Assembly: GCA_030737835.1 (NCBI GenBank)
Contig: CM060851.1
Location: 1,178,001-1,242,000 of the forward strand
From: Acorus gramineus
Lineage: Eukaryota > Streptophyta > Magnoliopsida > Acorales > Acoraceae
Direction: 5' to 3'
Length of the DNA stretch: 64,000 bases
The position numbers and the translations under genes are program-made. The notes under the pieces are model-generated. The model had not been told where the DNA came from and did no database searches. It was given only the letters and a program-made list of their open reading frames with translations. This document shows, one piece after another, positions 23,421-64,000 of this stretch; the first letter of the stretch is position 1; each line of letters starts with the position of its first letter.

Positions 23421-25496
23421 TCACATCTTCTTTAATTTATTTTTTTTTCTAGAAATTCTCTTTGGAAATCATAAGAATGTTCTTCACCCTCTAGTGATAT
23501 ATAAAAAAAAGACCAGCGGTTACTAGCAGTTTGGATTGATTTATGTTATAGTGTAAGGATAGTTGATTGAAATAGAATACTGTAAAAATTTATGAGAGAA
23601 CAATAATAATGCGGTCATTGTGGATCAATATTTAAATTTATGTGAATGTATCTTTTATTTGATGTTTCATATGGATTTCCATTAATCTTACCTCTGTAGT
23701 TTGTGAAAAAGTTTGACAACCTTTTGTCTCTGTTTGTCATGAGTGAGTTTGTGAGAAGAAGGTGAACGAAATCTTGTGGTGATTGTGTTTGCCAAATTGA
23801 ATAACATTGATTGGTACTTGCCAGAATAAAAAAAAATTAATATAATGGATTGTGATTTTTAGCCCTTGTCGGGTAAAAATCATTATTTAGTTACCCCCTA
23901 TGACGTGGAACATAATATAAGAATAATGAAAAATAGATGATAATAGTTAAAAAAAAGTTGTTTGTTTTGATATAATAAACCTCGATAGTTACGTCTGGAT
24001 AAACTAGGATAAAGCCTTATAACTATTCTAAGGAAATGGTGGAATTGCTTATCAATGTTTATCTATGTCAATGGATAAAAATATTCTTCTCTGTCATTTT
24101 AAAAAATTTATTTTACCTAACAGAGTCACATAGATTTCAAAAACTGTCACATCTATCAAATCAATCATATATCTCTCACACTATTTTTTTAGGGGTATAA
24201 TTGTCATTTTAAAAACCATAAACTCTTATTCATCTATTATCAACCATTTATCATCACTTTATCCAAGGTGAACCAAACAAAAAAAAGTCATTTTTACGTT
24301 TCTCAATGAGAATAACAAAAAAGACAACCAAACAAAAAGTTACTTATTCAGCCTGGATTGTTATCTATCCCAGTATAGCTATCAGGAGCGAATAACCTAA
24401 TGTCACACCCCATACAGGGGGTTAGATAATTATTCAATTATAGACAATCAATAAATCATTTTTTTTTGGTGTGTTTTTGATGGTTAGCACTAGAAAATAT
24501 AATGGGACTTAATAATTCACATGACAATTATTGGCGTTACGGGTATTTGATTGTTTCCGAGGTTCTCCTCGTGGTCTGGTCGGGACATGAATTCCTGCTT
24601 AGCGTGTACCTTGTCATTCGTCTGTGAAGTGCAAAACTGTTTGATTAGACCTGATTCAATTTGATCGAATCTTACTTGCTCGGGGTGACATTTGCTCGCG
24701 AGGTATAGTACCATCCGATCAGACCTAACTCATCTCAATGAGAGACTAGTCTGATCGTGACATTCAATCGGAAAGTGTTTGCTTGTAGCTTTGTCATTTT
24801 GTCATCGCCAAACTGGGTTGCGGGCTATCGGATGCAGCGATTTATGTTCGAGTAATTTTAAACACGTGTCACCTCTCCATTGGGTGAAGATTATTTTCCT
24901 CCACAATTAAAAAATGTAATAATAAAGATATTGTTGTTTATAGTTGAGATAAAAGATGAATAATATGTAAATAATGATTTATTAGAGATAAAAAATAATG
25001 ACATTTTTTTATTTATAAGAGATGATGTGATTTATTCTAATGAAATAAATTGGATGAAAAAAATAACATTCTAATGAACTTTTATGCCCTCTTATTATGA
25101 ACTTTTATGCCCTCTTATTCTTTTCATGTTTGTGAGCTTAGTCAACTCATTTTTAACATATTTGACATTTATTTTTCTATTTAAACAAACACAGAGTGTT
25201 AAGTGAAATAATATTAATGTCAATTTATTTTTCACATATCCTAATGTATAGATATATCTATTTATTCAATACAAACAAATTAAGAGTTTGACTTTATTTA
25301 TCCAATCCACCGTCAACCACAGGATATTAGCATTTTCTACCTTTGCCTAAAAAAAAAAAAAAAAATCATCAATGGTTCCTACCCAAAATGACCAAAGTAT
25401 CCCTCCCACTTCCCTTTAAAACCCAACCCTCCTTCCCTCGTTTTTTTTAACCCCACCCACCCCACCCCTCCCAACAAATGACCTTCCCACCCCACC
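23421..25496. other. Intergenic between AIM24 and LOI1-like genes
   Basis: AT-rich. A moderately GC patch at 24540-24840 (e.g. GATCGTGACATTCAATCGG, CCGATCAGACC) resembles a decayed LTR or other repeat but has no motif I can name. A 23-bp tandem duplication (ATGAACTTTTATGCCCTCTT) sits at about 25075-25120. No gene is seen. Confidence 0.4.
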
Positions 25497-35950: not shown

Positions 35951-38900
35951 TTAGATGAAGTACATCAACTCCTTCACATTGTCTTGGATCCTCGGGAGGG
36001 ATCGCACCTCTGTGTTCTGCTCCCTCGTGTTTGCCATACCTGCGCGGGGGATTGCATCGTTCCCTTCGCTTTCGATGTAGTACCGAGCTCGAAACGCTGC
36101 GTGGTGGGCGTAATATGCTGGAGGAACTGAAACAAAAAGGATGTTAGGATCACGTGTTGGTGATGTGCAGATGTGCAATATGAATCTGATACTGAGGAAG
36201 TATTCGAAAATGAATCAGATTGACCGGATCTATATCTAGATTTTCATAAATGAGAGTTGAATGATATAAGTTTGTCTGATCATCCTGTAAAGTTTTAATG
36301 CTGCAGATGAGAGTAGCTGGTTTTCCTTCCAAAATTAGGCCTTTATTATTATTATATAGCCATTCAGATTTCCAAATTTGAAGTTCAGTCAGAATGATGG
36401 ATGTTTATATCACAATTCACATTGGTGAGCTGAGGAAAGGGGAACCCACCTACAGAAACCGAGCGAGTGCAGCGAGCATATCTGAAAAAAGCAAAAACAT
36501 CTACTGTTAGTCATACATGACAACCCAGATGAACAGTGAATAAAAAGACAGAAAAGGTAGAAACATTGATTACCAAAACCATTAACAATAACAAACTTTT
36601 TTTTTTTTTTTGGCTTTGTAAATAACTTCATTCATATCAACTAAAAGAGGGATTTACAGAGTGTGCATCAGAATAATCCTTGTACAAGAAAAAGGTGTAA
36701 CCCAGACTCGTATTCTGAAAGGACTGTAGTGTGTTTTGCTAGTCGTATGCTCTCTTCTCAGTGTTAAATCAGTATTACTCTTAGGAGGGAAACCTTTCTC
36801 CCCATCTATGTAAGCTTTTTGTGAACAATAACAAAGTTTTGTTTATATACAAGAAGGTTTTTGGTGAATAATCAGGTTATTAATAAGGAAATTTAGAGCA
36901 GAAGATGAAGAAAAATCTTACGTGTAGCAGAGGTTGTTTGTGAGAACTTGAAGTGCATCAGCGGTGAAACGGTTCTCATCATACAAGACATGATAGTGGG
37001 TAGGCCTGCTAGTGCCCTGGATAGAAGAATAGAGAATGAGTGGCATATTGTAGTCGAATACGATATTAGGAGTTTCAGATAGTACTAGCATTACCTTTAT
37101 CCCGGCGTGACTACACAGGTAGAAGTCGAATTGAGTTGGATGACATATGGTTCTGTCAACAACCGTTCCTGAAACAAGTGGGGGTTATTGTTGTAAAATT
37201 TTGGAATTTGAAAAGATGATAGTAGTACCGGCCTCTGAAAGATTTAAGTGTGGATACAGACATTACTATATCTAATTTGTATCCAAGTTGACAGGCATAC
37301 TATACATTATTCAGATGAAAGATAGTCTCATAGACTAACCTGGTAAGATATTCTCACTTTTGTCTTTCATATTTACAGGAAACAGACGGGTGTGATGCCT
37401 TTTCTGGACCACCACAAATGTAACAGGTGGGCGGTAATTATGATCGATAGAATGACAAGCCTGATCCAAAATGCACAAACAGAATGTGTGAATCTTTAAC
37501 AAGGGAACAATAAGATAGGAAATCCACATTAAACTGATTCAAAACAAGAAAAAACATCGCATCTTAACCTGGCGAATTGCAGACATCTCATCAAGCAGAA
37601 CACGATTAAACTGTCCTTCACTAACCCCATCTCTGCAAGTCAACAAAATTGAGAACAGATCGGGAGGTGTATCTTAAATTCTTAATGCAGAAACCATTTG
37701 CCTCCATTTATATACCGATAAAATATGATCCGTTGAGGAGGGCGACCAACTGATTTATGAAAAGCCTTGAGAAGTTCCCTGACCATCAACAGAAATGATG
37801 TTTAGTTCCATTCAAATGTTACCTAAACTCAACGGTTGTTTATACATCCACTTACACAATCATTCCACCACCCACAGTACGACCTTTCTGGGGATGGACA
37901 TACTCAGTGTATAGATCCTCAATAATTTCCTTACGATGATGCTGCGCGGAAACCAAACCTCTGTACTTGGTAACCTCTGGCCAATCCATTGAAGCGACAA
38001 CCTATATTTCAATTCAAGATATGATTTACAAGTGAGTATAAGATAGATATATACCTAGTAAGAGATTCTCCAAGAGATGTGTGAGATCTAGTAAGTGATA
38101 CCGCCGCTATTGAAGGACTGGAATCCTCGCCAGGCTGTGGATGAGTTACATCAGCACCAAAGATTATCGTTTCTACATCAGTTACTAGAGGTATCCTCCT
38201 GTGAAGCGCATCATCCAACACTGTATTCCGCCCACCAACCTGCCCTTCCATGATCACGTCCATAAATCCAAAGTTAGCATTCATGAATGGTCTTCTCATA
38301 TCCATTAAGAATCTAGATATAGGCAACAGACCTTCACATTGATCTTCAACGCGACATTTTCAAGAAATTGTTTATTACCCTTGCGAACATTCTTGGGCAA
38401 GCAACACTGTGATATAATGCCCAACTCTGTTTCACATATTTTCTTTATCTTTCCTGTGTGAAAATGGAAATATTTCTTTATCAGGATTTAGATCAAAATG
38501 TCTTTCAATGATGGAAAGCCAGATCTCTATGAATTCTTACCATATGACCCCCTGGCTTCGGGTAAAATTATGATCAACAATAGAATCAACCGGTTCTTAG
38601 AATCTTTTCCTGCCATTTTTGCATTGGATATATTATGCACATCCATCAGCACCTTCTCGACATCATTAGCCCGGGGGGACGGGCATGAGACAATTGGAAG
38701 AACCGGATTGGGATTGAACACCTTTACGAATGAAACAAAAAAAAATGTGATGGTTCAGTTCAGCTATTAATCCATTTGATCAATTTAAAGTGAACTCAAT
38801 TTAAAGTAGATGGTTGCACTAAAAAAAACTGTTGTCATGAAAAAGTTTTATATACCATTCCTAGGTCTCTACACATGGAAACCAGATCATGGCAAAACCC

Positions 38901-41900
38901 ATTAGCAACATCATTTTTCTCCCGCGAGAAGTTAATACATGCCCATGTGTCAACGCGTCCTCCATTAACCATTTTCTGGAGACAAAAAAAAAAAAAAAAT
39001 TAAATTCATTAACACAAATTTTATCTTGAGAGATGTTCATTCCTAAGAAGAAATAGACAAATACGAACATGATCACGAACGTAAATTTGAAGCATTACTA
39101 AGCAAACAAGAAAACATGTAATACAAATACCAGAAGGGAATGAATCAACATCATTGCAATATAGTACCCATTATCATTAAATATAAGTGATGAACACGAT
39201 AAAAATCAAAAGAAGTAGCAAGTGAAATACTGAAATGGTAAGACAACTACCGAGAAGAGATAATTCATTTGCAATAAAGCATTGAATATATGCAGTCCAT
39301 ATATGCAATCTCGGTTATAAATGATAGTTCCAAACCAAGAACATCTTATATTCAGAGAATGAAGAGAAAAAATTAAATTATGCACCACCTTTTTAATCAT
39401 ATTCCATTGCCCAACAGATGGACAGCACGTCGACTCCTTTCCAGTCTCATGATACCTCAACTGAAACATGAAGAGGCGAAATAAAGTTAAAGACTCTAGA
39501 AGTGTAGAAAAAACTGTTATAGATGCCAAGCCACTAAATGAGATGGAAATTTTTGAAGAAAAGTAATTCACCTTCGGTGATGGTAACACCCTTGCTTCAA
39601 CAGGGGCAAGATTGTCCATGACAGCTATTCCAAACTCAACAGCGTATTCATCATTCTTGTACCGATTTGTGTTGGCAACCTAAAATGAATATTCAAATTA
39701 TTATGCAAAGTAAAACATTCTATGACATGTATGATTAGGCTACACAGGGTATAGCATACTCAGAATCTATTTATATTGTTGTGTTCAGTTCTCTATAGAC
39801 TTAAATTAATTATCCAAATTCATATGAGGCCCTTACAGCCTTTCCATCCCACCTTGTTCTACCATTTGGTGTATTGTGTCCTTCTCCCCCCCCCCCCCCC
39901 CCCCAGGTGACAACAGTGAAGCTTTTATAATGTATCTTATGTGGTGTTCACTGATATAGTCAACTTTCAGGTCTGAAGTTGATTTGTGAGTGATAAATTA
40001 GCAATGCAGTGACAGAGTGACAATACTTTATTGTACTAGCCTGCCCTGTTAACCAAACCCAGAAGATCTTGGTAAGAATATAAACTCGGCTTTGCATATT
40101 ATGAATGCCCATGGAAATTTTTGATGCTCAGGTGATATTTAATTGTGTTTCACGTAAGGTGGACGATGGTCTAGTGTTTTGAAAACTGCCCATTTTGGAA
40201 AACTAATAAGTTAGAGGCCTATTTATATTGCAGTATACTGAAATTTGAAGATTTTGCATTTCCTTTTCATATTATCCAATTAAAACTGAAGTATAGTTTG
40301 TCAAATTGAGTTGCTCATTTTCACTCACTTACTCGGAGTATTATAGTAAGATCCTTCTAGTTGAATTCAGTTGATGTTCATTTTTATAGGCTACACTCCC
40401 CACCCACCCAAAAAAAAGTAGTCCAAGTGTTCGTCTTTAATATATACACACACACACAACATGAAATTCTTTAAGTACATTGCTACAGAGCACACAAACA
40501 AACATTTCCAAAGAATAATGCAACAATTCATGTACACTTCTCATTATTCTGTTCAGACATGTCCAGATGCTTGTCATTGAAACAAATATACCATGTGAAA
40601 CTAGTGACCAAGCAGATGCCATAAATTACAAAATATTTGTACCTTAATTGTCTGCTCCTCTCGCTCTCTAGGCTTTATGCATGTAGCAGTCAATATTTCC
40701 CTGATTTGCCGCTCAGACAGCTTCTTTGAATAACGCTGACTATCAGTAATTTTGCATACCTTGATTCACAAATTCATTCAGCATACCAGAATTTGAGCTT
40801 TTGAGAAAGCAAAAAAAATAAAAATAATAATAATAATAATCAAACAAATAGCTAATTAGTTGTAATACATAAGCCACTAACCTCCATCGGCAAATATGTA
40901 GGTCTACTTTCACTTCCTGCCAGCAAGCATGGCCAGTATAGAAGCTCAAGCATGCGGTTATATTTTTTTTTAAAATATTCTACGACAGATACTCGCTCAT
41001 CCTTCTCAGCCATAAACCTGGCAAGAGGAAACATAAATAAATTTCAGAAGCTGCATACCATAAATACATAAACGCACTAATAGAATCAGATTCCAGACCT
41101 AAATAATCTAATAACAACATGGGAATAAGATATTAGAATTAATACATACATAAGCTGGTTCAGAGGTTGGGTTGTAACCCCTGTGATGCGATATCGTCTT
41201 CTGCATTCAACATTGTGAGTAGTCTCAACCATAAGTCCTCTAAGAACCTTCTTTATCTGGAAATAATTAATGAGACAAAGGAATGATAATAAGACCATAG
41301 AGAAATAGAAGGAAATGCATTACTAAAAAACCCAATACGAATAGTGTACTACTAATTAAGTTACTATGTTTTGAGCTTATTCATCAAGGAATACTAGAAG
41401 TATCACAATAGCCACAATCCATGATACATGAAATTTAAGAGATTGGTTCCATATTGAGAAAAACCAAATTGGATTTTTCATTAGATGTCATACCTTCAAA
41501 CGGTCAGCTTCAGTCAGGGGTCTTGATATATCTTTACCAGGGAGAAACTCACTCAAAAATTTAGTTACCATGATTGGCTTAAAGAATGATGTTGCTGAAA
41601 TGTCTAGAAAAAAGGATAATGCATGTCAAATGGCTAACGAAAAAGCAAAATCAACACGCACTTGAAAAATAAAGGGCCTTACAATGTAAAGATTATATGA
41701 TGAAAGGTTTGTATTAGTAACTAAAAAAAAATTCAAGGAACAACACCTATATTAAGAGATAATCCCATCTGTGTGGGGCGCAAGCTTTGATAAAAGCCTT
41801 TCCAATATTCACATCCATCACCAATATCGCCTCTCTGCTCCGGTGTAAAGAAGGATCGTCCCACAATAGTGAACCTGTTGAAATTCAGGATGACCAAATC

Positions 41901-44606
41901 ACAAAGGGAAAGAGAGAATTAAAAGAAGAAAAAAAAATTAGTGAAGAAAGGTAATTACATGTTTGAGGGAGACTGCCTCAAAACAATATCTAAGGCCTGA
42001 ATTGCAACCTGAGGCACATCCATTCGCCTCCCTTGCAGAAACTGTCTGAGGTTATGCATGTCCGCTCGGCTTGCCATCTTGATTGTGACTTTGAACTCTC
42101 TATCCTTTCTGAATATCAAACCAACAGAAAACAAAACTATATTGAAGAAAGATAGAAAAGGCCAAAGGAAAACAAAAGATGTTAAAAGGTTAGATGATTA
42201 CCTTAAGCCTGCTTTTTCATTTTTATCAGGTAACTTTATCACAAATTCCTTTGAGTTGAAAGGCAAAGGTCCTGCGGTGTACAGTCCCTTCATACCATCG
42301 TAGACCGGAAGACGACCTCCCAAGTATGATTCTCGATGGAGGTTGACTAACTCAGTAATAACAGCGCGGTTAATCCCTTTTGATGCCACTTCAGGAGTTA
42401 TGGCAACCTGTAAAAAAAAGAAGTGACAAAAAATTTGATATATGTGAGATCAAGGAAACAATGCAATCAGGAATATCAGCTCATATGCATTTTTTTTGTT
42501 GCACGGCAGCAATTCTCAAGGCGGGAACATTAATTTATAACACGAATAAAAATACCATCAAATCAATATTCATCTTATCCTACTATCCACAAAACACCAT
42601 CACCAGTGCCCTGAGAAACTAACTCACTATTTCATAAAAATAGGATGACACAATCCACCAACAGGCACCCATATCCTCAAAAAAGGGAAGAAGAGGATAA
42701 AAATAGAAATCTATGGATGATAAATAATGACATGGAAGAACATAAGAGATGAAGATTAATGCGAAACAAATGTGATGATCAATTATAAAATACTTAACAA
42801 CAACCAATCAGGACACTTATCTATAATGCCCACACAAACCGAATGAGCAAAATAGATCCAACACCACTAGAAGAACAAATGGAAGGGTGATAAATAAATT
42901 TACAAATGTGAATAAGTATTTTCACCAAGATATTTTTTAAACTGGAGTCAATAATATACAGAACAACAAAGCTAAAATAATCCACGCACACAAAAAAAAA
43001 AAATTAAAAAACAAAAGTGAGCAACTGAAGAGAACATGATGAAATATTGGGAAAAAAAAACTACTAAACTAAAAATTACGAAAACTGGTGAATCAATGCC
43101 TTGAAAAACACCAGCTCAGAGAAAATACAAAATAAATAAATCCAGAAATCCAAGAAGTGCAGAAGATAGAAGAATCATTACAAAAAAGAAAACACTAAAA
43201 GCAATACTAACAAATTCAGTGAAAAACATAGAAAAAAAAAAAGAAACCAGAGTGAACAGTACAGAGTGAAAGAGACAATTAAAGAACAGACATTAAAAAA
43301 AATCAGCAACTAAAAAAACAAATTCAACGCATAGAACAAAGTAAACAAACAGAAACTTAGGAAAATCTGAGGAATAATTGCTTAGGAACACCAGATCCGC
43401 GAAAACATAAAAAAATATTTTAAAAATGATTCAGAAATGCAAGATACAAACCAAAAAAAATACAGATGAATCATTACCCAAAAAAGATGAAAACAACAGT
43501 AGCATGTTCAGCGAAGAACTAACCACAGAAATACGCAGTGAACAAGCACAGCCAAAGCACAACAATCACATATCTAAAAAGCTCACCTACTAAAACAACA
43601 AATGAAACTCATAGAACAAAATAAAAAAAAATCATTCCCGCAATACAAGAAGCTCAGAAAACAGATGAATTGAATCATGACGGTAGAATAGTAACAAATC
43701 CAGTGAAAAAAACAGAGATAAAAATACACAGTGAAAAGCACAGCCTTGACATATCTGAAAGATTACCAACTAAAATAACAAATGAAACTCAATAAAAAAA
43801 AGATCCCGAAATACCAGAAGCTCATAAAAAAAAAAACACATGAATCATTGACGATATAGAGGGCAACAAATTCAGTGAAAAACAGAGAAAACGCTACATA
43901 GTGAACAAGCACGGTTAAAGCACAGCCTACACATATCTTAAAGATCGCCAACTAAAACAATACTGAACGAAACTCAGATTTACAAATAAAAAATTGATCC
44001 AGATATACGAGAAACTCAGAAAAACTGATGAATCACTACCAAAAAAACACTACGAGAACAATGTTAACAAATTCAGTGAAAAACAGACAAAATTCGGAAA
44101 AAAAAACAGAGAAAACAATATACAGTGAACGAGTACAGCTAAAGCACAACCTACACATATCTGCAAAATCACCAACTAAAGAAACCAAACGAAATTCATC
44201 GTTAGAAAAATTGACAACAACAACAACAAAAGCCAAAGGATCAAGCGATGCTCACATTGTAGTGATGAAGATCCTTATCAGAGAGCTGCACCAAGAAGTG
44301 GTTCGCACGGACCAAACACTTAGTCCCGAATGTCCCGAACCCCGGCCGAGCCGGAACTCTGTATGTCACCTGAGGCGGAGGATCCGTCCGATTCTCCGTC
44401 ACCGGTGCCACGATCTGAGGCGGCGGCGTCTGCAACGGCGGAGCCAGAGAATGTGAAGAGGACTCTCCGGGATCCGTGATCGAGAGCTTCGTCTCAACCT
44501 CTCCCGCGATCGTCGCCGGAGAGATAGGAGCTCCCGGAGGAGTTGATCGTCCTCCGCTGCCTCCTCCACGACCTCGGCCTCCTCCGCCGCCGCTTCGTCC
44601 GGACAT
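35951..44606 (-). CDS. AGO5: Argonaute A, AGO5/MEL1 clade, 22 exons, 938 aa
   Basis: Small-RNA-guided slicer of the AGO1/5/10 branch. Exons 5' to 3' (high to low): 44606-44256, 42407-42202, 42108-41959, 41874-41747, 41603-41494, 41256-41150, 41017-40882, 40759-40643, 39679-39572, 39460-39389, 38975-38856, 38721-38541, 38453-38332, 38239-38102, 38001-37856, 37778-37716, 37632-37569, 37460-37340, 37168-37095, 37016-36922, 36481-36450, 36126-35951. All are GT-AG and in frame. Gly/Arg-rich N-terminus to ~residue 90, then [21 protein letters not shown] (exons 5-8), MID (exons 12-13, [20 protein letters not shown]) and PIWI. Slicer residues: D666 ([17 protein letters not shown]), E in RKEIIED, D753 (RDGVSEGQF), His in [28 protein letters not shown] favours the AGO5 clade over AGO1. 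The C-terminus is LMYFI instead of the plant norm MFYC. AGO5/MEL1 proteins act in germ cells and load phasiRNAs. Confidence 0.95.
36596..36823 (-). mobile_element. Short retroposon (LINE 3' end or SINE) in AGO-A intron 20
   Basis: A 228-bp insert is bounded by the perfect 12-bp direct repeat AACAATAACAAA at 36584-36595 and 36824-36835. Next to the left copy is a 14-15-base T run, i.e. a poly-A tail on the minus strand, preceded on that strand by GTTATTTACAAAGCC. Target duplication plus poly-A shows target-primed retrotransposition. There is no coding capacity; it is probably a severely 5'-truncated LINE. Confidence 0.85.
43165..44230. repeat. ~185-bp tandem array filling AGO-A intron 1
   Basis: Diverged units recur in order: (A)TGAATCAttacc..., then ACAAATTCAGTGAAAAACA, AGTGAACAAGCACAG, AAAGCACAGCCTACACATATCT, then CCAACTAAAACAA and GAAACTCA. 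Unit starts are near 43467, 43664, 43841 and 44026 (spacings 197, 177 and 185), with a more diverged unit from about 43172. The array is A-rich and non-coding. Intron 1 (42408-44255) is otherwise featureless. Confidence 0.8.
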
Positions 44607-46976: not shown

Positions 46977-49900
46977 TCAGGCAAAGTACATGACATCTAA
47001 TATGTTGTCTTTGATCTTTGGGAAGGGACGTCGATTCTGATTGTTTGCAATGGACGTTTCAGATGTGTCACTTTCGATGTAATATCGAGCACGGAAGGCC
47101 ACCAAATGAGCATAATATGCAGGAGGGACTGCCACAGAAAACAAATGATGCTAATCAGATTGAATTCCAATATCACTTATAACCAGACTGCCACAGAAAA
47201 ACAAATGATGCTACTAAATTAGAATCCAAAACTACTTAAAACAAGTTTTGAAGGAACATATTTGTTTGGGGGGATTTTTGCTTTTACCCTGATAAAATTT
47301 TAATTTGTCAAAAATATCCCTGAAAACTTGAAGGTCAGTGCATCGGTGCACCTAAGGTCAACTTTTGTTGAGTTATGCATATATCCTTGCAGTGTTCTCT
47401 TCGACAAATTGAGGGCATTTTAGCCTTTTCACAATGTCTAGTTATCCTAGTACAATCGTGTCACTTCCTGTTTTTTTCTATTTGGGTAGCGGAATAGGTG
47501 GGGAATATGATGGAATAGGGGGAATAAACTTAAAAACATGTTTGTTTGCAATGAATAAATAGGTATAGCTATGCTAAAATATATGAGAATAAGCTAGTAT
47601 GAGTGTTTTGGATCCCTGTGGAATTCTGTTTCATTCCACCCATTCTATTCCCCACTGGTATAAGGGGTATAAGGGGGGTGCACATGTCATCACCTATTAT
47701 AAACAATTAGATTTTAATAGGGGTATACATGTGAAAATCTTTATACTTTTATTTCATACTAATAATATTGCCATTAATGAGAAAACTAATTTATAATAAA
47801 ATTTATATGAGAGATCAGCAGAGAAAGGGAAGCAGAGGAACCAACCTAGAGAAACAGATCTGGTGCAGCGTGCACACCTGAAAAAATAAAATACAAAATT
47901 AGCACACACAAAAAAAAAATTACAATACATGCACAAAAATTTAGCACAGAAGGAAGAAACTTACGTGTAGCAGAGGTAGTAAGTGAAAACTTGTAGAGCA
48001 TCAGCAGTGAAACCATTCTCATCATATAACACGTGATAATGCACAGGCCTGCTAGTTCCCTGGAAAAATAAAAAGTGGAGATAGGTTTCAAATAGTGCCA
48101 GAAAACAAGTTGTGTATTTTTAACTCTTTTTTTGGGGGGAGTACTAGAATACCTTTATTCCTGCATGACTGCAGAGATAGAAATCAAACTCGGTTGGATG
48201 GCATATCTCCCTATCAACAACAGTGCCTGGAACAAAAAAAAATATTAACATGGGGCATGAGAAACTCATCATCTGAAAGAACTGATGTTTTGAATAACTC
48301 ATCAAAAGAGGGCAAATCACTAACCAGGTAAAATGTTCTCATTTCTACCAGTTGTGTGAGGGCCACCTTGATTCTTGGGAAATAGACGTGTGTGGTGTCG
48401 CTTTTGGACGACCACAAATGTCAACAGAGGTTCATACTTCTCGTTGTCAATGGCTTCGCAAGCCTAATTCACATGGTACACAGTACATAAGCAGAAAGTG
48501 ATTTTTTAATTACAGTAAGAAATCCTTAGCAAAGGCAATCCACATTACATTCCTAAAGAGAGGCGATGGGATTGAATGTTAACCTTCCGAATGGCAGCCA
48601 CCTCATGGAGGAGAACTTGGTTAAATTGTCCTTCACTAACACCATCTCTGAAAGCCAACAGCATGACAATAATTTTTTTCCAGATGTAGAGTCATACATT
48701 AATGCTCAAGCCCTTTTTTTCACCCCTGTTGACTTACCGATAAAATATTATCCGTTGAGGTTTGCGTCGAGTTGACTGATAAAATGCCCTAAGCAATTCC
48801 CTGACAAACAACACAATATCATCACAAATTAGTCACATTTTCAAGTCCTTTTATAGGCTATCTATGCCAAAATGTGACTATTAATTATTTAACAAGCTTA
48901 CATAATCATTCCACCTTTCACAGTATTTCCTTTGGCATCAGACTCCGTATAGAGGTCCTTGATGATTTCCTGACGGTGCGGTTGAGCAGAGACCAAACCC
49001 CTGTACTTGGTCATCTCCGGCCAATCCATCGATGCAACAACCTTTATAAGGATATGAATAGCAGACTAAATTTAGTATTAAGAGAAGTGGGAAAAAAAAA
49101 GGAAAATTACAATATAAATATGCACAGAACTTATTGAACATTACCGCAGCAATTGATGGGCTGGAATCCTCCCCGGGCTGGGGGTGTGTTACATCAGCAC
49201 CAAATATAATGGTTGGGTCGTCAGATACTAGAGGTATCCTTCTACAGACAGCATCATCCAACACCATATTGCGGCCACCGACCTATACTTCCATGATAAC
49301 ATCCATGTTTCATACGTTAGCACACATTTAACGATTTTCAAATTAATTAATGATCGATCAAGATATTGTACGTCACCTTCACATTGATCTTCATCGCAAC
49401 ATTTTCAAGATAACGACCATCCACCTTCCAAATATTCTTGGGTTTGCAGCACTGTGATACAATGCCCAATTCGGTTTCACATATTCTCTTTATAGTACCT
49501 ATAAAAAGATCAAAGACCCTTGAGATTGGACTTAACTCAACGTGTTCAAATAAAAGGAAAGAGTTAAATTATTGCTCACCGTATGATCCACCGGACTCGG
49601 GTAAAATAACAAATAACAATTGAATCAGTTGACCCTGAACACATCTTCCAACCAACTTTGTGTGTACATTAATGAGCGCACGCTCAACATCCCTTGGATG
49701 AAATGACTCAATTGGAAGTACCGGATTAAGATTGAAAACCTTCAATCAAAAGAAAAATGAAACAGAACTCAGACCAGGTATTCATCAACTTAATAGTCAT
49801 ATATGTAGTGAACTTGTACTGATCAATTAACCTAAAGGAAACGACATTTGAAAGAAAAGAAACATTGGAGATGAACTGGTAATAAAGTAAAACTAAAAGT

Positions 49901-56541: not shown

Positions 56542-59500
56542 TCAGCAAAAGAACATGACATCTTTTACGTTTTCCTTTATCTTGGGGAGGGGGCGGACCT
56601 CCCCACCACTTCCGGTGCCCGAACGGGACGCAGAATCGGATGCGTCCCCTTCGATGTAGTATCGGGCACGAAACGCCGCCAAGTGAGCATAATATGCTGG
56701 AGGGACTGCCAATAGAAACAAATTATGCTAATCAGATTGGATTGAGTGAAACTACTTTTAACACTTGAAATAATGCTTGGGTAGATTCTTGGGTGAACTG
56801 CATTTTGAACCCCCTCTGCATTTTAAAAATATGCACTTACACCTTCTTACCATTAAATTACACAGTAACATGAGAAAAACGATAACATGAAACATACCAT
56901 TACTTGAAATATAAATGGCTGGTTTATATTAGTTAAGATATATGTATGATTAATTTGAGATGTATGGATTAAGTATAAAATATTATTGAGTGATAAAATG
57001 AAACTTTCATGTTACTGTTTTTCCTATTTTAATGTATATACCATAGAGAGGGTGCAAGTTCATGGGGGTGTAAGTGCACATTTTTAAAATATAGGGGGTG
57101 TTTAAGCAGGTTTCACAAACTTCAAGGGGTGTAGATGCATTTTACCCTACATTATTTATTTAATGGTTCTTATATACCTGACATTGATTTGAAACTATTA
57201 AATGTCTGAATGACTTTATAATTATATGAGATTAGCAGAGAGGAGAGCAGAATGACCAACCTATAGAAACCGAGCGAGTGCAACGTGCATACCTGAAAAC
57301 ATAAAACATGCAGATTTAGAATACAACATGATCAATGGAAAAATTAACAAAAGAAAGCATTATACACATGCACAAGTTCAGTGTAGAAGAGATGATATTA
57401 CGTGTAGCAGAGGTTGTTAGTGAGAACTTGCAGAGCATCAGCAGTGAAACGGTTCTCATCATACAATACATGGTAGTGAGCGGGCCTGCTAGTGCCCTGG
57501 AGAGAAGAACAAAGGGAGACTGGTTTCACATAGTGAAAGAAAACAAGATGTAAATTGGAAATCTTTTTTTGTAGTAGTAGAATACCTGTATTCCTGCATG
57601 ACTGCAGAGGTAGAAATCAAATTCAGTTGGATGGCATATAGTCCTGTCGTTCAGTGTAGAAGAGATGATATTACGTGTAGCAGAGGTTGTTAGTGAGAAC
57701 TTGCAGAGCATCAGCAGTGAAACGGTTCTCATCATACAATACATGGTAGTGAGCGGGCCTGCTAGTGCCCTGGAGAGAAGAACAAAGGGAGACTGGTTTC
57801 ACATAGTGAAAGAAAACAAGATGTAAATTGGAAATCTTTTTTTGTAGTAGTAGAATACCTGTATTCCTGCATGACTGCAGAGGTAGAAATCAAATTCAGT
57901 TGGATGGCATATAGTCCTGTCAACAACAGTGCCTGGAACAAAAAGAAATTAAAATGGGGCAAAAGAAATTTATAATCTGAAGAACTTGAAATTCGAATAA
58001 TTAAATATAATGGGTGGGGGGCTAACCAGGTAAAATGTTCCCACTTCTATCAGTTGACCGGCGATCACCATGATTGGCAGGGAATAGGCGTGTGTGATGT
58101 CTCTTCTGGACAACCACAAATGTGACTGGAGGGAGATAACCTTTCTCCAGCGACGCACAAGCCTAATTTATATAGTATTGAAGTAAAATGTGATTTTTAT
58201 GGTGAGGAATCCACATTACACTGATTAAGAGAGGTCACGAGATTGCATATTAACCTTCCGAATAGCAGTCATTTCATAAAGGAGTACTTGATTAAATTGT
58301 CCTTCACTAACCCCATCTCTGCAAGTCAACGTAAAAAATAAAAAATAAAAAAATAAGATATAGAGTTGCATCTAATCTCTCTTTTTTTTCTGTTTTTTTT
58401 TTAGCCTCTTTTAACTTACCGATAAAATATTATACGATGAGGTTTCTGACCAGTTGACCTGAAAAAAGCCACAAGCAACTCCCTGACAAACAACAGAACA
58501 CAATCACAATTTTAGATTAATTTTCACACTACTTACAGGTCATCCAAGTCAAAGTGATGTTAGTTTTTATCTATTTAAGTGTTTACCGGATCATTCCACC
58601 AGTCACAGGACCTTTTTTGGGATCAACAGACTCGGTGAAGAGGTCCTCAATCATTTCTTGGCGGTGTGGTTGGGCTGAGACCAAACCCCTGTACTTGGTG
58701 ATCTCAGGCCAATCCATCGATGCAACCACCTTTTTAAGGACATGAATAGCAGACTAAATTTACATGTGGGGAAAGAAAGAAAATTACAATATAAATCAAC
58801 CTCCCATAAAAATATTCACTGAACTTAGTGAGCATTACCGCAGCAATTGATGGGCTGGAATCCTCCCCTGGCTGGGGGTGTGTCACATCAGCACCAAATA
58901 TAATGGTTGGCCTGTCAGATACTAGAGGTATCCTTCTACAGAGAGCATCATCTAACACCATGTTGCGGCCACCAACCTACACTTACATGATAACATACAT
59001 AGATCATATGTTAGCACATGTTAAAAGATTGCAAGTATTTATAAATGATCAATCAAGACATATCAGACCTTCACATTGATTTTCATTGCAACATTTTCAA
59101 AATACTGATTACTCATCTTGCGAATGTTCTTGGGCTTGCAGCACTGTGATACGATGCCCAATTCCGTTTCACAAATTCTCTTTATCCTACCTGTAAAAAT
59201 ATCAAAGAGCTTCAGATTGGATTTAACTCAAGTGTACAAATAATAAGCAAGAGTTTGATCAATGCCCACCATATAATCCACTGGCCTCAGGTAAAATAAC
59301 AATTAGCAACTGAATTGGTTGGCCCTGAACACCTTTTTCGGCAAACCTTGCTGTGGATTTACTGTGTATATCGAAGAGCTCACGCTCAACATTCCTTGGA
59401 GGACACAAGATAGTTGGAAGTACTGGATTGGGATTGAAAACCTACGGTCACAAGGAAAATTAAATGGAGCTCAGACCAGGTATTGATCCACTTTATAATC

Positions 59501-62500
59501 ATACATATACGCGGTGAACTTGCACAAAATCAATTTACAGAAGGGCTGAAGAATAGAAAAAAATGGGGATGAATTGGGAAAAAAGTAAAACAAAAGGTCC
59601 AAGTGTTTGGTGAAATTCTATACCATCCCAACATTGTTGCACATTTGCACCAATCCCCCGCAAAACATGTTAACAGCATTGTTGTTTTCGCGCGAAAAAT
59701 TGATGCAGGCCCAAGTGTCAACTCGTCCACCATTCACCATTTTCTGCAGAAAATAAAAAATACAAGTTCTTCAACTGACCAGACATGAATTGTGAACATC
59801 GTTCAAAATATAGCACCAATTTCAGCATAAAATATCATGATAAGCACGATAAAAAGAAAAACCAACTCAATGTATTATAACAGCTCAGGAATTACCAATG
59901 AAACCAAAATTGGGCTAAGCTACTTGAAATAGTCAATCAAACACTATGACAATCGAATTTTGATAGAAGAGCAGATGTTCCACATTCTAATTGAAAACAT
60001 TCTCTTAAAACAAGGGCAGATATTCAGGAAATAAAAGAAGGAAAAAAGATCATTGCATCACCTTTTGGATCAAATTCCATTGCCCGACAGATGGTCGACA
60101 AGTTGACTCCTTTCCAGCCTGACTGTACCTCAGCTGAAAAGATACAAAAGAGTTTTTAGTGAGAAAGATAAAAAAAAAGCTAAGGATCGTGACAGTGTAA
60201 AGCAAATCCACTGATACAATAAATAGATAAATAAACAAAAATTATTCACCATTGGTGGTTGTAACACCCTAGCTTCCAGAGAAGTAAGCCCATCCATGAT
60301 CTTCATTCCAAACTCAACTGCATATTCATCATTTTTAAACTGGTTCTCATCCACCACCTGAAATTATGTACACTTGTCATTCTAGTTGTCATATTTATAT
60401 TCAAATGCCTAGAGTATCAAAACATTAAGAATGTGAAATTCTGCAATTACATTATTACCGAGCACACCAATTTCATCTGCCACTATGAATCTCTCTCTAA
60501 ACATGTTAAATTTCATGTCATTAAAAAATCTAAAAATTAACCATGACATATTGTTTAAAAATAACTCATACACGCCCCCCCCAAACATGGATGTACATAT
60601 TATTTTATTTTTAAAAAATGGTCTAAAACCAATGATGGTAAGGCCTCGTTTGGTAACACGATGTTTGATTTTTTTTTTTTTTTGGGAGGGGGGGGGGTTT
60701 GTGGGTGTGATTCTGCTTTTAATTAAACAAAAAACTCAAACATGTTACCAAACAGATTTTAGGAAACCAGCTTAATTAAAAGTTACTTTCAATTTTTAGT
60801 GCAAAAGGATTACTTTTTAAAAAACACAGAAAATACGATTTCCAGGAATCAAAGTCAATTTAAGTTACTTTATTCAAAATCTTATTTTTCAAACGTGTTT
60901 CAAAACAGGCCCTAAGTTACTTACAGTTTTTAGTGCAAAAGGATTACTTTTTAAAAAACACAGAAAATACGATTTCCAGGAATCAAAGTCAATTTAAGTT
61001 ACTTTATTCAAAATCTTATTTTTCAAACGTGTTTCAAAACGGGCCCTAAGTCACTTAACAAAATCATGAGCATATGAACAAGCATTTTGGTCATAACAAG
61101 GCCATACCTTAATTATGTTCATTTCCCTGTCATGGGGGCGTACACATGTGGCCTTCAGTATTTTGGTCACTTGTTGCTCGTTCAGCTTCTTCGAGTAACG
61201 CTGACCTTCCGCTATTCTGCAGATCTTGATAAATATAAGCAACCAACAAACATAAGAGTAAGCAATCACTGCAAGACAGATAATGACAAGAATAAAACAA
61301 AGATAAACACAGATTTGACAATGAACCTCCATAGGCAAAAATGTAGGTTTGCTATCACTTCCTGCTTGCAAGCACGGCCAGTTTAAATGCTGAAGTACAA
61401 TGTTGTACTTGTTCTTGAAGTATTGCACTACGGATAAATTTTGCCCATTCTCATCCGTAAACCTAGGGGAAAAAAACAATTTCATAACCGCGAACTGCAA
61501 TCATATATAACAAGTCGCCATTTAAACAAGCAAGTTAAATGGATTGCCTAAGGAAGCTAAAAAGACATACATAATTTGTTTCATGGGTTGAGGTGATACT
61601 CCTGAAATTCTATAACGTCTTTTGCAACTTCTGACATGAGTTGTTTCAACAGAGAGACCTCTAAGAACCTTCTTAACCTGGAAATAATAACACAAAAAGA
61701 GTGAGAAATTGGACCACAGAGGAAGGTAAAGCACTGGCCTATTGAAACAACTTTTTATAATATGTATAGTAATTAATTGGATATAACCATTCACTAAATA
61801 AATTTCTATTCACTGTATTTAGACCACAACCATCCTTGATAAATGGAGTTAAATATATTACATTCACAATGGGAAAATAAAAAAATGTTTGGGAGGTCAT
61901 ACCTTCAGACGGTCGGTGTCAGACAAAGGTTTTGATGCATCTCGAACAAAAAGGAACTCAGCAATGAATTGGGTTACCAGCACTGGCTTGAAGAATGCTG
62001 TAGCTGAAATGTCTACAAAGATGAACAAGAAACATGTGAAAGCGCATCCCAAAAAGCATAAGTAGCATGCACTTTAACACAATAGTCCTTTATATGATTG
62101 AAAATAACATAAAATGATCAAAGATTCACAATGAATAAGAACTTTCCAAGCATAATACCAATATTTAATGACAATCCCATCTGCGTTGGACGCAAGCTTT
62201 GATAAAACCCTCTCCAAAATTCACATCCATCACCAATATCAGCTCTTTGCGCGGCTGAGAAGAATGAGCGCCCAACAACCGTAAACCTGTTAAAATTCAG
62301 GAAAATCATGTTACGTATTCATAAAAGAGGAAAAAATAAAAAGAAAAAAGAAAACACATAGCAGAGGAATGTTTACCTGTTTGAAGGAGATTGCCTCAGA
62401 ACGACATCCAAGGCCTGAATTGTTTCCTGAGGCACATCGAATTGCCTTCCGATCAAAAACTGTTGAAGATGATGCATATCTGCTTGGCCAACCAATTGAA

Positions 62501-64000
62501 TGGTCACCTTGAAGTCCCTATCCTTTCTGAACAACAAACAAAAAGCTGTAAAAATCAAAAAATAAATGTAAACTAAATACAGAAAAACCCAGATGTTTGA
62601 AGGATGAAAAGATTTCAAAACAGACTTGACAGTTGCTCTTCCATCATTCTCAGGCAACTTGATGACAAACTGCTTGGATTTGAATGGCAATGGTCCGGCA
62701 GTGTAAAGTCCCTTCCGACCATCGTACACCGGAAGACGTCCACCCAAATGTGACTGACGATGAAGTTTAATCAATTCTGCTATAACAGCACGATTCACAC
62801 CCCTCGAAATCACTTCAGGAGTTATTGCAACCTAAAAGAAGCAAATAAGAATGATAAGATGTCCATCTACAAAAAAAAAACCTATTAAATGATCCATCAA
62901 CATAAAAACCTATTAAATGCAAATGTAAACCAACCAGTAAAAAAATTCATATGGGCAAGATCAGGAATCTAGCAATAGTATCAGATCAAACAAGACCTCG
63001 ACCTCAGATTTATTGCCTGCAATCATAATCTTTCCAAAGGAATGTAAATTTTTTGAAAAACACTAGTACAAACTACCTTCAAAATGTTAATCAAAGTAAA
63101 GCATTTGGAAACACGTTTAAAAAATAAGATTTTGAATAAAGTGTCGTAAATAAACTCGATTCCTAGGCAGCGCATTTTCTGCGCTTTTTAAAATGCAATC
63201 ATTTTGTATTTAAAAACTGTAAGTAACTTTTTAATTAAATCTGTTTTCTGAGAGGCATTTAGTAGCACATTTGCACTTTATTAAAAAGCAAAGTGCGTCT
63301 AAACGCGTTACCAAACACCAACCTAAGTCTGCAATGTCATAACTGAATGCCAAAAAAAACAGCAGGCTAACATCCATAGTTATTCACAAATCCCAAACAT
63401 TGGAGCCCTAATGAAACAAACCCATACAATACAACCAAAAAAAAAATGAAAAAAGTTCAATGTCACATATGAGAATATGAATCACAACAGATATTAGTAA
63501 CACAAGAATTCCATACTGCAAAAAAGGAAAGCAGCAGAAGATCAAATACATATAATGTAACAAGGATAAATAAATCATAGCATATGACACAAGAAGAATT
63601 TATGTGAAACAAATGTTATGATACTACGACATTGGATATTCGGATTATTTACAATACTTGAGCATTGGAACCCTAAAGAACCAACCTGCACAACACACTA
63701 ACAAGCAATAAAGGCCAATCTCACATGAGAAACCACAGTAAAAAGTATAAAACACAATAGAAGTTAGCAACAACCCAAGAATTCCATAATGCAAAATAAG
63801 CAATGTGAGAATTGAACAAAACACATAAGCTAATCACAATAACATAAAACACAACAGATCATACAAGATGAGGAATGATGTTGGACAAATGTCATAATCA
63901 CCATACCATGCAATATAACAACCTAAATCAATCCAAAATCAGTTCAAATCTAGTAACCATAGCTTTAAAAAAAAATTACAAAAAAGATGAAGGTAAAAGA
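56542..64000 (-). CDS. AGO5: Argonaute C, AGO5/MEL1 clade, exons 2-22; exon 1 off the window
   Basis: Exons 2-22 (high to low): 62831-62626, 62526-62377, 62286-62159, 62012-61903, 61677-61571, 61462-61327, 61224-61108, 60357-60250, 60133-60062, 59743-59624, 59441-59270, 59190-59069, 58976-58839, 58729-58587, 58482-58420, 58318-58255, 58162-58027, 57932-57859, exon 20 in two identical copies 57769-57675 and 57496-57402, 57292-57261, 56705-56542. With one exon 20 they encode 818 aa in frame. The exon 1 that should encode the Gly/Arg-rich N-terminus lies beyond 64000, so intron 1 exceeds 1.17 kb. Slicer residues are intact (FGADVTHP, E in [24 protein letters not shown]). MID loop: EASGLYGRIKR. 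The C-terminus DVMFFC is nearest the canonical MFYC, and an SRSGTGSGG spacer precedes it. Using both exon 20 copies (95 nt each) would shift frame, so either copy alone, or mis-splicing, is expected. Confidence 0.92.
56791..57148. mobile_element. ~360-bp MITE with long inverted ends in AGO-C intron 21
   Basis: The left end (GGGTGAACTGCATTTTG... CCCCCTCTGCATTTTAAAAA, ATGCACTTACACC) and right end (GGTGTAAGTGCACATTTTTA, ATAGGGGGTG ... GATGCATTTTACCCT) are reverse complements over roughly 55-85 bases with a few indels. There is no coding capacity. It accounts for most of the 555-bp intron between exons 22 and 21. Confidence 0.65.
57376..57921 (-). repeat. Identical 273-bp tandem duplication inside AGO-C
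   Basis: 57376-57648 and 57649-57921 read identically base for base, starting GTTCAGTGTAGAAGAGATGA and ending ATATAGTCCTGTC. Each copy holds the start of intron 20, all of exon 20 with both splice sites, intron 19, and the 3' 63 bases of exon 19. In the downstream copy the truncated exon 19 (57586-57648) has lost its acceptor: the junction reads GTTCAG|... on the plus strand, with no AG next to it on the minus strand. The complete exon 19 is at 57859-57932. Confidence 0.95.
60641..61050. mobile_element. MITE family B copy with tandem-duplicated 3' part, AGO-C intron 9-8 interval
   Basis: It begins AGGCCTCGTTTGGTAACACG and ends AAACAGGCCCTAAG at 60916. A 134-bp segment (60781-60914) is then repeated almost perfectly at 60915-61048 (TTTTTAGTGCAAAAGGATTA, CGATTTCCAGGAATCAAAGT), ending CGGGCCCTAAG. 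Internal AACATGTTACCAAACAG lies near 60740. It sits in the intron between exons 9 and 8. Confidence 0.7.
63105..63326. mobile_element. MITE family B copy, opposite orientation, AGO-C intron 1
   Basis: It starts AAACACGTTTAAAAAATAAG and ATTTTGAATAAAGT, the reverse complement of the 60641 element's right end. It ends CGCGTTACCAAACACCAACC, complementary to that element's left end. It is diverged inside. Confidence 0.6.
63400..63910. repeat. ~255-bp direct repeat in AGO-C intron 1, shared with AGO-B intron 1
   Basis: CAATGTCACATATGAGAA ... AACACAAGAATTCCATACTG (from ~63460) recurs as CAATCTCACATGAGAAA ... AACCCAAGAATTCCATAATG (from ~63716). The motif CTATGTCACATATGAGAAA with AATGCAAGAATACTATAAT also occurs in AGO-B intron 1 at about 53103. 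Shared intron sequence marks B and C as the younger duplicate pair. Confidence 0.6.

Follow-up and report, generated by a model that had tools for sequence, protein, structure and literature searches.

Vaughn and Bennetzen are said to have described, in 2014, perfect tandem duplications that stem from double-strand-break repair in rice. According to the accessible portion of a rice study (PMC7971508), tandem duplications are the most frequent insertions in that species and are most enriched at 50-200 bp; they make up about 70% of events, a share that has shrunk to 5% once 200 bp is reached. Perfect ones form a common class, with a tail that extends beyond 200 bp up to 4.9 kb. Work on mouse cells attributes most small tandem duplications at breaks whose 3' ends are complementary to fill-in and end joining, and reports polymerase-theta duplications to be larger and to show microhomology much more often (PMC8355091). 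For a duplicated exon, an outcome in splicing has been described in human DMD: in the available part of that report, untreated cells carrying a duplication of exon 44 or 45 displayed only low-level skipping of a single exon (PMC1931584).

Here we analyse a doubled exon in an Argonaute gene of Acorus gramineus, which belongs to the lineage reported as sister to all other monocots (PMC10282084). The available portion of the A. gramineus genome paper (PMC10282084) contains the word Argonaute once, in the reference list, and a literature search judged by titles gave no publication on this locus.

AGO-C as a predicted MEL1/AGO5-clade Argonaute

The window, a 64,000-nt stretch of A. gramineus contig CM060851.1 (positions 1,178,001 to 1,242,000), contains three Argonaute genes in tandem on its minus strand, AGO-A, AGO-B and AGO-C. 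Each has 22 exons, and exons 2-21 differ in length between the genes by multiples of three only, exon 20 being 95 nt and exon 21 being 32 nt in all three. For AGO-C (Table 1), the model of exons 2-22 derived from open frames and splice sites agrees with the spliced alignment to the MEL1 protein of A. calamus (P0001). With one exon 20 the gene encodes 951 residues with no internal stop, all of its introns are GT-AG, and its exon phases match those of AGO-A and AGO-B. The possibility that AGO-C is a pseudogene through other lesions was ruled out, as its 22 exons are open.

AGO-C is 96% identical over its full length to the 947-aa P0001; its best match is A. calamus MEL1, with 98% identity over 818 aa, and the other named matches among those listed include many MEL1 and AGO5 proteins and some AGO1. 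Judged by these closest relatives, and by the six Pfam domains precomputed for P0001 from which its domain set was taken, AGO-C is predicted to belong to the MEL1/AGO5 clade and to have the complete set of Argonaute domains. Pairwise dN/dS is 0.28 between AGO-C and AGO-B (dS 0.58), 0.16 between AGO-C and AGO-A, and 0.18 between AGO-B and AGO-A, and all three genes look to be under constraint.

The original prediction placed the slicer histidine in exon 20, and this proved to be wrong. In an alignment to human AGO2 (4ola chain, printed numbering) combined with the exon map, exon 20 corresponds to residues 758-789 and the YYAHL motif to residues 804-808, and His807, which we take to be the catalytic histidine of human AGO2, aligns with H905 of AGO-C in exon 22. 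The single-copy model of AGO-C contains the four residues of a DEDH tetrad, D679 (exon 14), E720 (exon 15), D765 (exon 17) and H905 (exon 22), which are presumably catalytic, so that a protein made from it is predicted to carry the slicer tetrad. Exon 20 encodes a conserved piece of PIWI that includes none of the four.

Table 1. Positions of AGO-C features and of the single-copy exons used for comparison (window coordinates unless marked otherwise)
Feature	Positions	Strand	Length	Remark
AGO-C, exons 2-22 of 22	56542..62831	-		Predicted MEL1/AGO5-clade Argonaute; splice model and spliced alignment
AGO-C exon 1	65217-64819 (window-extended)	-		Outside the window
Exon 19, full, with acceptor	57859..57932	-	74 nt	Gene model
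Upstream copy of the repeat unit (5' in gene direction)	57649..57921	-	273 bp	100% identical to the downstream copy
Exon 20a	57675..57769	-	95 nt
Downstream copy of the repeat unit	57376..57648	-	273 bp	100% identical to the upstream copy
Exon-19 fragment	57586..57648	-	63 nt	Acceptor-less; within the 178-nt intron
Exon 20b	57402..57496	-	95 nt	Identical to exon 20a
Exon 21	57261..57292	-	32 nt	Its last codon is the double-inclusion stop
Exon 22, with stop	56542..56705	-		Carries YYAHL with H905, presumed catalytic His
AGO-B exon 20	47965..48059	-	95 nt	Single copy, comparator
AGO-A exon 20	36922..37016	-	95 nt	Single copy, comparator

An exact 273-bp tandem repeat

Two adjacent 273-bp segments of AGO-C, which had been called identical by eye, are indeed so at exactly the positions originally given, with 0 differences in 273 and a start-to-start distance of 273. 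Tandem Repeats Finder (TRF) reports 2.0 copies with 0% indels. The periodic stretch measures 546 bp, or 2 x 273, and has a single best register; with exactly two units, no base is shared at the junction, which is thus blunt, with neither microhomology nor filler. The length of the repeat excludes chance, and the locus shows the adjacent, head-to-tail copies with near-perfect identity that characterize a tandem duplication.

Read in gene direction, the unit starts 63 nt before the end of exon 19, runs through the 89-nt intron 19 and the 95-nt exon 20, and stops 26 nt into intron 20; AGO-C consequently reads exon 19, an 89-nt intron, exon 20a, a new 178-nt intron, exon 20b, a 109-nt intron and exon 21. 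Both exon 20 copies run from phase 0 to phase 2, as anticipated. The duplication left out the natural acceptor of exon 19, which is situated upstream of the unit, and the piece of exon 19 enclosed in the new intron (57648-57586) indeed has no acceptor of its own.

We surveyed 264 kb (the window and 200 kb downstream) for two-copy, ungapped tandem duplications with a unit of 40-5000 bp and at least 80% identity, using a complexity filter. The 273-bp repeat is the sole exact case among the nine duplications that pass. A far shorter exact duplication, 23 bp x 2, lies at 25074-25119. We dropped the use of these duplications as an age spectrum because there are only nine. Intron 8 of AGO-C contains a 134-bp repeat with 2.1 copies and 3 differences (60780-61057), which brings the number of high-identity tandem duplications in this gene to two. 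At 85823-86388 of the extended window (C5:1263823-1264388) there is a two-copy duplication of 283 bp, close in size to the 273-bp unit, with 5 differences and a blunt junction, which could be real or a haplotype artefact. Since there are nine cases only, and two of them, the 283-bp one with 5 differences and the 134-bp one with 3, are themselves possibly haplotype artefacts, the survey neither proves nor refutes that the 273-bp duplication is real.

An assembly error, too, would be expected to give an exact, unmutated repeat in a functional-looking gene. In that case the plant would have one exon 20, the second having come from a layout or consensus error in which reads or haplotypes were joined with a 273-bp offset. 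This reading agrees with the zero divergence and the blunt seam, and with the low dN/dS of a gene that is intact elsewhere; false exon gains through duplication errors have been described as a class (PMC9516828). The likely source assembly was built from PacBio Sequel reads, with Falcon for correction, SMARTdenovo for assembly, and Arrow and Pilon for polishing, and the heterozygosity of the sequenced plant is called 'very high' (PMC10282084). However, the 264 kb contain 0 N, so that no gap separates the copies as in false exon gains, and many of the reads (57 Gb, with a reported mean of 13 kb; PMC10282084) should span both copies. The complete lack of differences also argues against the commoner heterotype error in so heterozygous a plant, and no second near-identical place in the genome was seen among the best candidates listed. 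Moreover, with no other exact two-copy duplication of a unit of at least 40 bp in the 264 kb, this assembly does not look full of such errors. We regard an artefact as a substantial possibility, though not as the reading to be preferred.

High heterozygosity (PMC10282084) is also compatible with a real duplication present on only one haplotype, the other allele being normal, and AGO-C has no other lesion; no contig of a second haplotype was seen among the matches listed, and we consider this reading improbable.

Exon 20 in other Argonaute genes

We compared eight Argonaute loci of A. gramineus, which represent seven distinct places because two overlap; they come from a search with 12 matches, of which the one at C5:2971310-2971410 was left out. 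Exon 20 is doubled in AGO-C only, one of the seven; it is single in AGO-B, AGO-A, an AGO1-like gene on C10, the partial copy of that gene at C5:18.68 Mb, and the loci on C4 and C32. The A. calamus protein P0001 likewise has one exon-20 peptide, a comparison at the level of protein rather than of orthologous DNA.

A number of other features of these genes came to light. A 964-bp AGO1-like piece that includes the equivalents of exons 19 and 20 is 99.1% identical on two chromosomes (within C10:12298433-12301537 and C5:18681598-18684702) and has sharp ends; it is either a fragment of the gene that was transposed or a duplication made in assembly. In AGO-B, the acceptor of the last intron has undergone an older tandem duplication of about 59 bp with 83% identity (47127-47242, minus strand), reading CTGTGGCAG|TCTGG and then, 59 nt on, CTGTGGCAG|TCCCTCC. 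As read from the sequence, use of the first of these acceptors would bring in an in-frame TAA. The Argonaute cluster thus contains another duplication of a splice signal besides that in AGO-C. For AGO-A (35951-44606), a public A. gramineus protein named MEL1 (P0130) has 876 aa against 938 aa in our model; it aligns best to AGO-A, at 93% over 880 columns with gaps at missing exons, and tblastn gives six segments of 95-100% identity (those above 95%). Since stretches missing from P0130 are open and can be spliced in AGO-A, the public annotation looks incomplete.

Predicted splicing outcomes

In order to determine which products the doubled exon allows, we enumerated isoforms from 10 acceptors and 9 donors taken from the scored splice sites described below, with exons of at least 8 nt and introns of at least 70 nt, exon 19 starting from 57932 and exon 21 joined at 57292. 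The set did not include lower-scoring sites, the acceptor at 57916 or any site in or beyond exon 21, so that the resulting 252 isoforms are not all that can be conceived. The normal C-terminus is retained in 30 of the 252 and the normal 951-aa protein in only two, namely the two choices of a single copy, which bears out the expectation that a normal protein requires one exon 20. Because the copies encode one and the same peptide from identical 95-nt sequences, as had been noted, the mRNAs made with exon 20a and with exon 20b are identical letter for letter. The RNA-seq comparison of the use of each copy that had been proposed consequently cannot work, and only the 20-20 junction is diagnostic.

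When exon 20a is joined directly to exon 20b, the frame shifts as originally predicted, and the product consists of residues 1-887 followed by 41 novel residues, with loss of the C-terminal 64 residues that include YYAHL. The stop lies 0 nt before the last junction. The double-inclusion transcript thus falls outside the usual 50-nt rule for junction-dependent decay; its decay through a long 3' UTR is possible. The first match to four variants of the poly(A) signal is found about 430 nt past the normal stop. We also used a 560-aa query with the 41-aa tail at its end to look for double-inclusion proteins, and recognised none among the best 120 of 5144 matches, which were not aligned to the tail and whose candidates were limited by length and shared words. 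The only Acorus-named match among the best 120 is P0001, which covers 93% of the query and whose protein cluster has 2 members.

The frameshift that the original prediction gave for two copies in series need not extend to every transcript that contains both. The exon-19 fragment cannot be included as a proper exon, its natural acceptor being gone; it does contain cryptic acceptors (57593, moderate; 57643 and 57601, both weak), and the one at 57601 permits an in-frame succession of exon 20a, a 16-nt exon (donor 57586) and exon 20b. A tolerated longer protein of 988 aa, with 37 additional residues, could be made in this way. It is one of the 30 isoforms that keep the frame and the C-terminus, and, as read from the sequence, HAGIQ is restored ahead of the second GTSRP, yielding a second GTSRP...LCYT-HAGIQ block. 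However, the acceptor is weak (19th percentile of 62), the intron of 73 nt is shorter than the smallest of AGO-C (79 nt), the exon has only 16 nt, and an insertion of 37 residues into PIWI is unlikely to be tolerated. We consider this the least probable of the readings discussed here.

The three paralogs together have 63 introns, of which 62 (all but the last of AGO-A) went into a small home-made matrix for scoring splice sites, and the scores serve only as ranks within this cluster. By this measure, exon 20 of AGO-C has a strong acceptor (rank 52 of 62) and a weak donor, CAC|GTAATA (rank 6 of 62); the corresponding donors are CAC|GTAAGT in AGO-B (rank 37) and CAC|GTAAGA in AGO-A (rank 23). 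In AGO-C (57669-57677 and 57396-57404) the donor is without the +5 G of the two paralogs (GTAAT instead of GTAAG). Each of the introns around the two copies (89, 178 and 109 nt) exceeds the smallest of the gene in length, and the one between exons 20a and 20b is longer than most AGO-C introns, which rules out steric exclusion of the two exons. As both copies share their signals and the whole of the upstream intron 19, position alone can distinguish exon 20a from exon 20b.

These observations bear on the suggestion that the copies are incipient or working mutually exclusive exons, with exactly one exon 20 in each transcript and a fully functional gene. Only single-copy transcripts keep the normal protein, as such a pair would demand, the weak exon-20 donor could favour the loss of one copy, and the decay of transcripts with both exons is reported to help hold the U2AF1 exons exclusive (PMC5224494). 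Mutually exclusive exons would nevertheless be expected to encode differing peptides, and here the choice changes nothing. Nor do we see, in intron length or in the compatibility or strength of the sites, any device against joint inclusion: with identical splice sites and a 178-nt intron that can be spliced, the exclusivity originally offered as one option has no visible enforcement, and the double-inclusion stop misses the 50-nt rule, leaving decay through a long 3' UTR as a possible route. A functioning exclusive pair is therefore unlikely, and we would give it only a very small chance.

Proposed origin and age of the duplication

The original prediction named the right set of explanations, a precursor of mutually exclusive exons, a splicing burden and an assembly artefact, but these are not equally likely: the first appears very improbable, the last a serious contender, and the burden has about an even chance of being correct. 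On this preferred reading, the tandem duplication in AGO-C is very recent, behaves as a leaky lesion in splicing and is mostly harmful. Starting from the sequence, the frame, the possible isoforms and the single-copy paralogs, we infer its age, repair mechanism and splicing outcome as follows.

The blunt, head-to-tail duplication would have arisen in the A. gramineus lineage within an otherwise intact AGO-C, with end-joining repair of a staggered break as its probable source. Since both copies of exon 20 retain the full ancestral acceptor and donor, joint inclusion should be frequent and would shift the frame. Transcripts with the two copies joined in this way would encode no catalytic histidine, and normal protein would come only from those in which one copy, and no more, is left out. 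Under independent inclusion of each copy with probability p, the normal share of transcripts would be 2p(1-p), at most half; given the weak exon-20 donor, skipping of one copy may exceed that known from DMD.

The split between A. gramineus and A. calamus has been placed at about 9.9 My (95% CI 5.6-21.6) from a Ks peak of 0.058 (PMC10282084), which corresponds to 2.9e-9 substitutions per site per year. From 9 to 16 differences would be expected in 273 bp since that split, and none is observed. The duplication is accordingly estimated to be at most about 2-3 My old, with 95% bounds of 1.9 My from all 273 sites and 3.3 My from 154 near-neutral sites, both of which carry the wide confidence interval of the split; an older origin could be masked by local gene conversion.

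Two points count against this origin. The share of tandem duplications reported for rice is down to 5% by 200 bp, so that 273 bp sits in the tail, and the repeat has no microhomology, which the larger polymerase-theta duplications show more often. A blunt unit of 273 bp thus stands at the upper size end of the fill-in and end-joining kind, and a misjoin would look alike.

A more speculative form of the same event, to which we assign a chance as slight as that of an exclusive pair, is a splicing switch at its birth, in which AGO-C makes both a normal MEL1-type protein and a slicer-dead form and so regulates germline slicing before the exons diverge. The slicer-dead form may have intact PAZ and MID and the novel 41-residue C-terminus, and its transcript may escape junction-dependent decay because the stop falls exactly at the last exon junction.

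In kind, the AGO-C duplication is ordinary. If real, it is a clean, datable exon duplication of zero divergence in a MEL1/AGO5-clade Argonaute, a natural test of how the spliceosome of a plant treats a pair of identical exons, one after the other, where introns are short, and an example of the stage that precedes the evolution of any mutually exclusive pair. If false, it cautions that a chromosome-level assembly can double an entire coding exon, where the resulting frameshift could make annotation drop or split the gene.

Comparison with known systems

The introns of DMD are very long, whereas those around the doubled exon of AGO-C, a plant gene, measure 89-178 nt. The two cases are alike in that an out-of-frame exon is present twice and a normal product results if exactly one copy is skipped, as reported for single-exon duplications of human DMD (PMC1931584).

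Exons Ab and 3 of U2AF1 (PMC5224494) and those of Arabidopsis MAF1/FLM (PMC3266260) are likewise tandem exons of which one is used, and U2AF1 transcripts with both exons contain stop codons, as does the double-inclusion transcript of AGO-C. In these genes, as far as they are described in the available parts of both reports, the exons and their splice signals differ, whereas those of AGO-C are identical; U2AF1, with diverged exons and decay of both-exon transcripts, represents a later stage (PMC5224494).

False exon gains in assemblies resemble AGO-C in that an extra exon comes from a duplicated piece, but the AGO-C copies have neither the gap nor the haplotype differences that go with such cases in the accessible text (PMC9516828). 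The duplications attributed to double-strand breaks in rice are, like the AGO-C repeat, head-to-tail, perfect, adjacent and devoid of filler; in AGO-C, however, the unit of 273 bp lies beyond the most enriched size range and spans a whole coding exon (PMC7971508). Compared with MEL1/AGO5 Argonautes, finally, AGO-C appears to be a full-length member, yet it is the sole one with a doubled exon 20 among the seven places compared.
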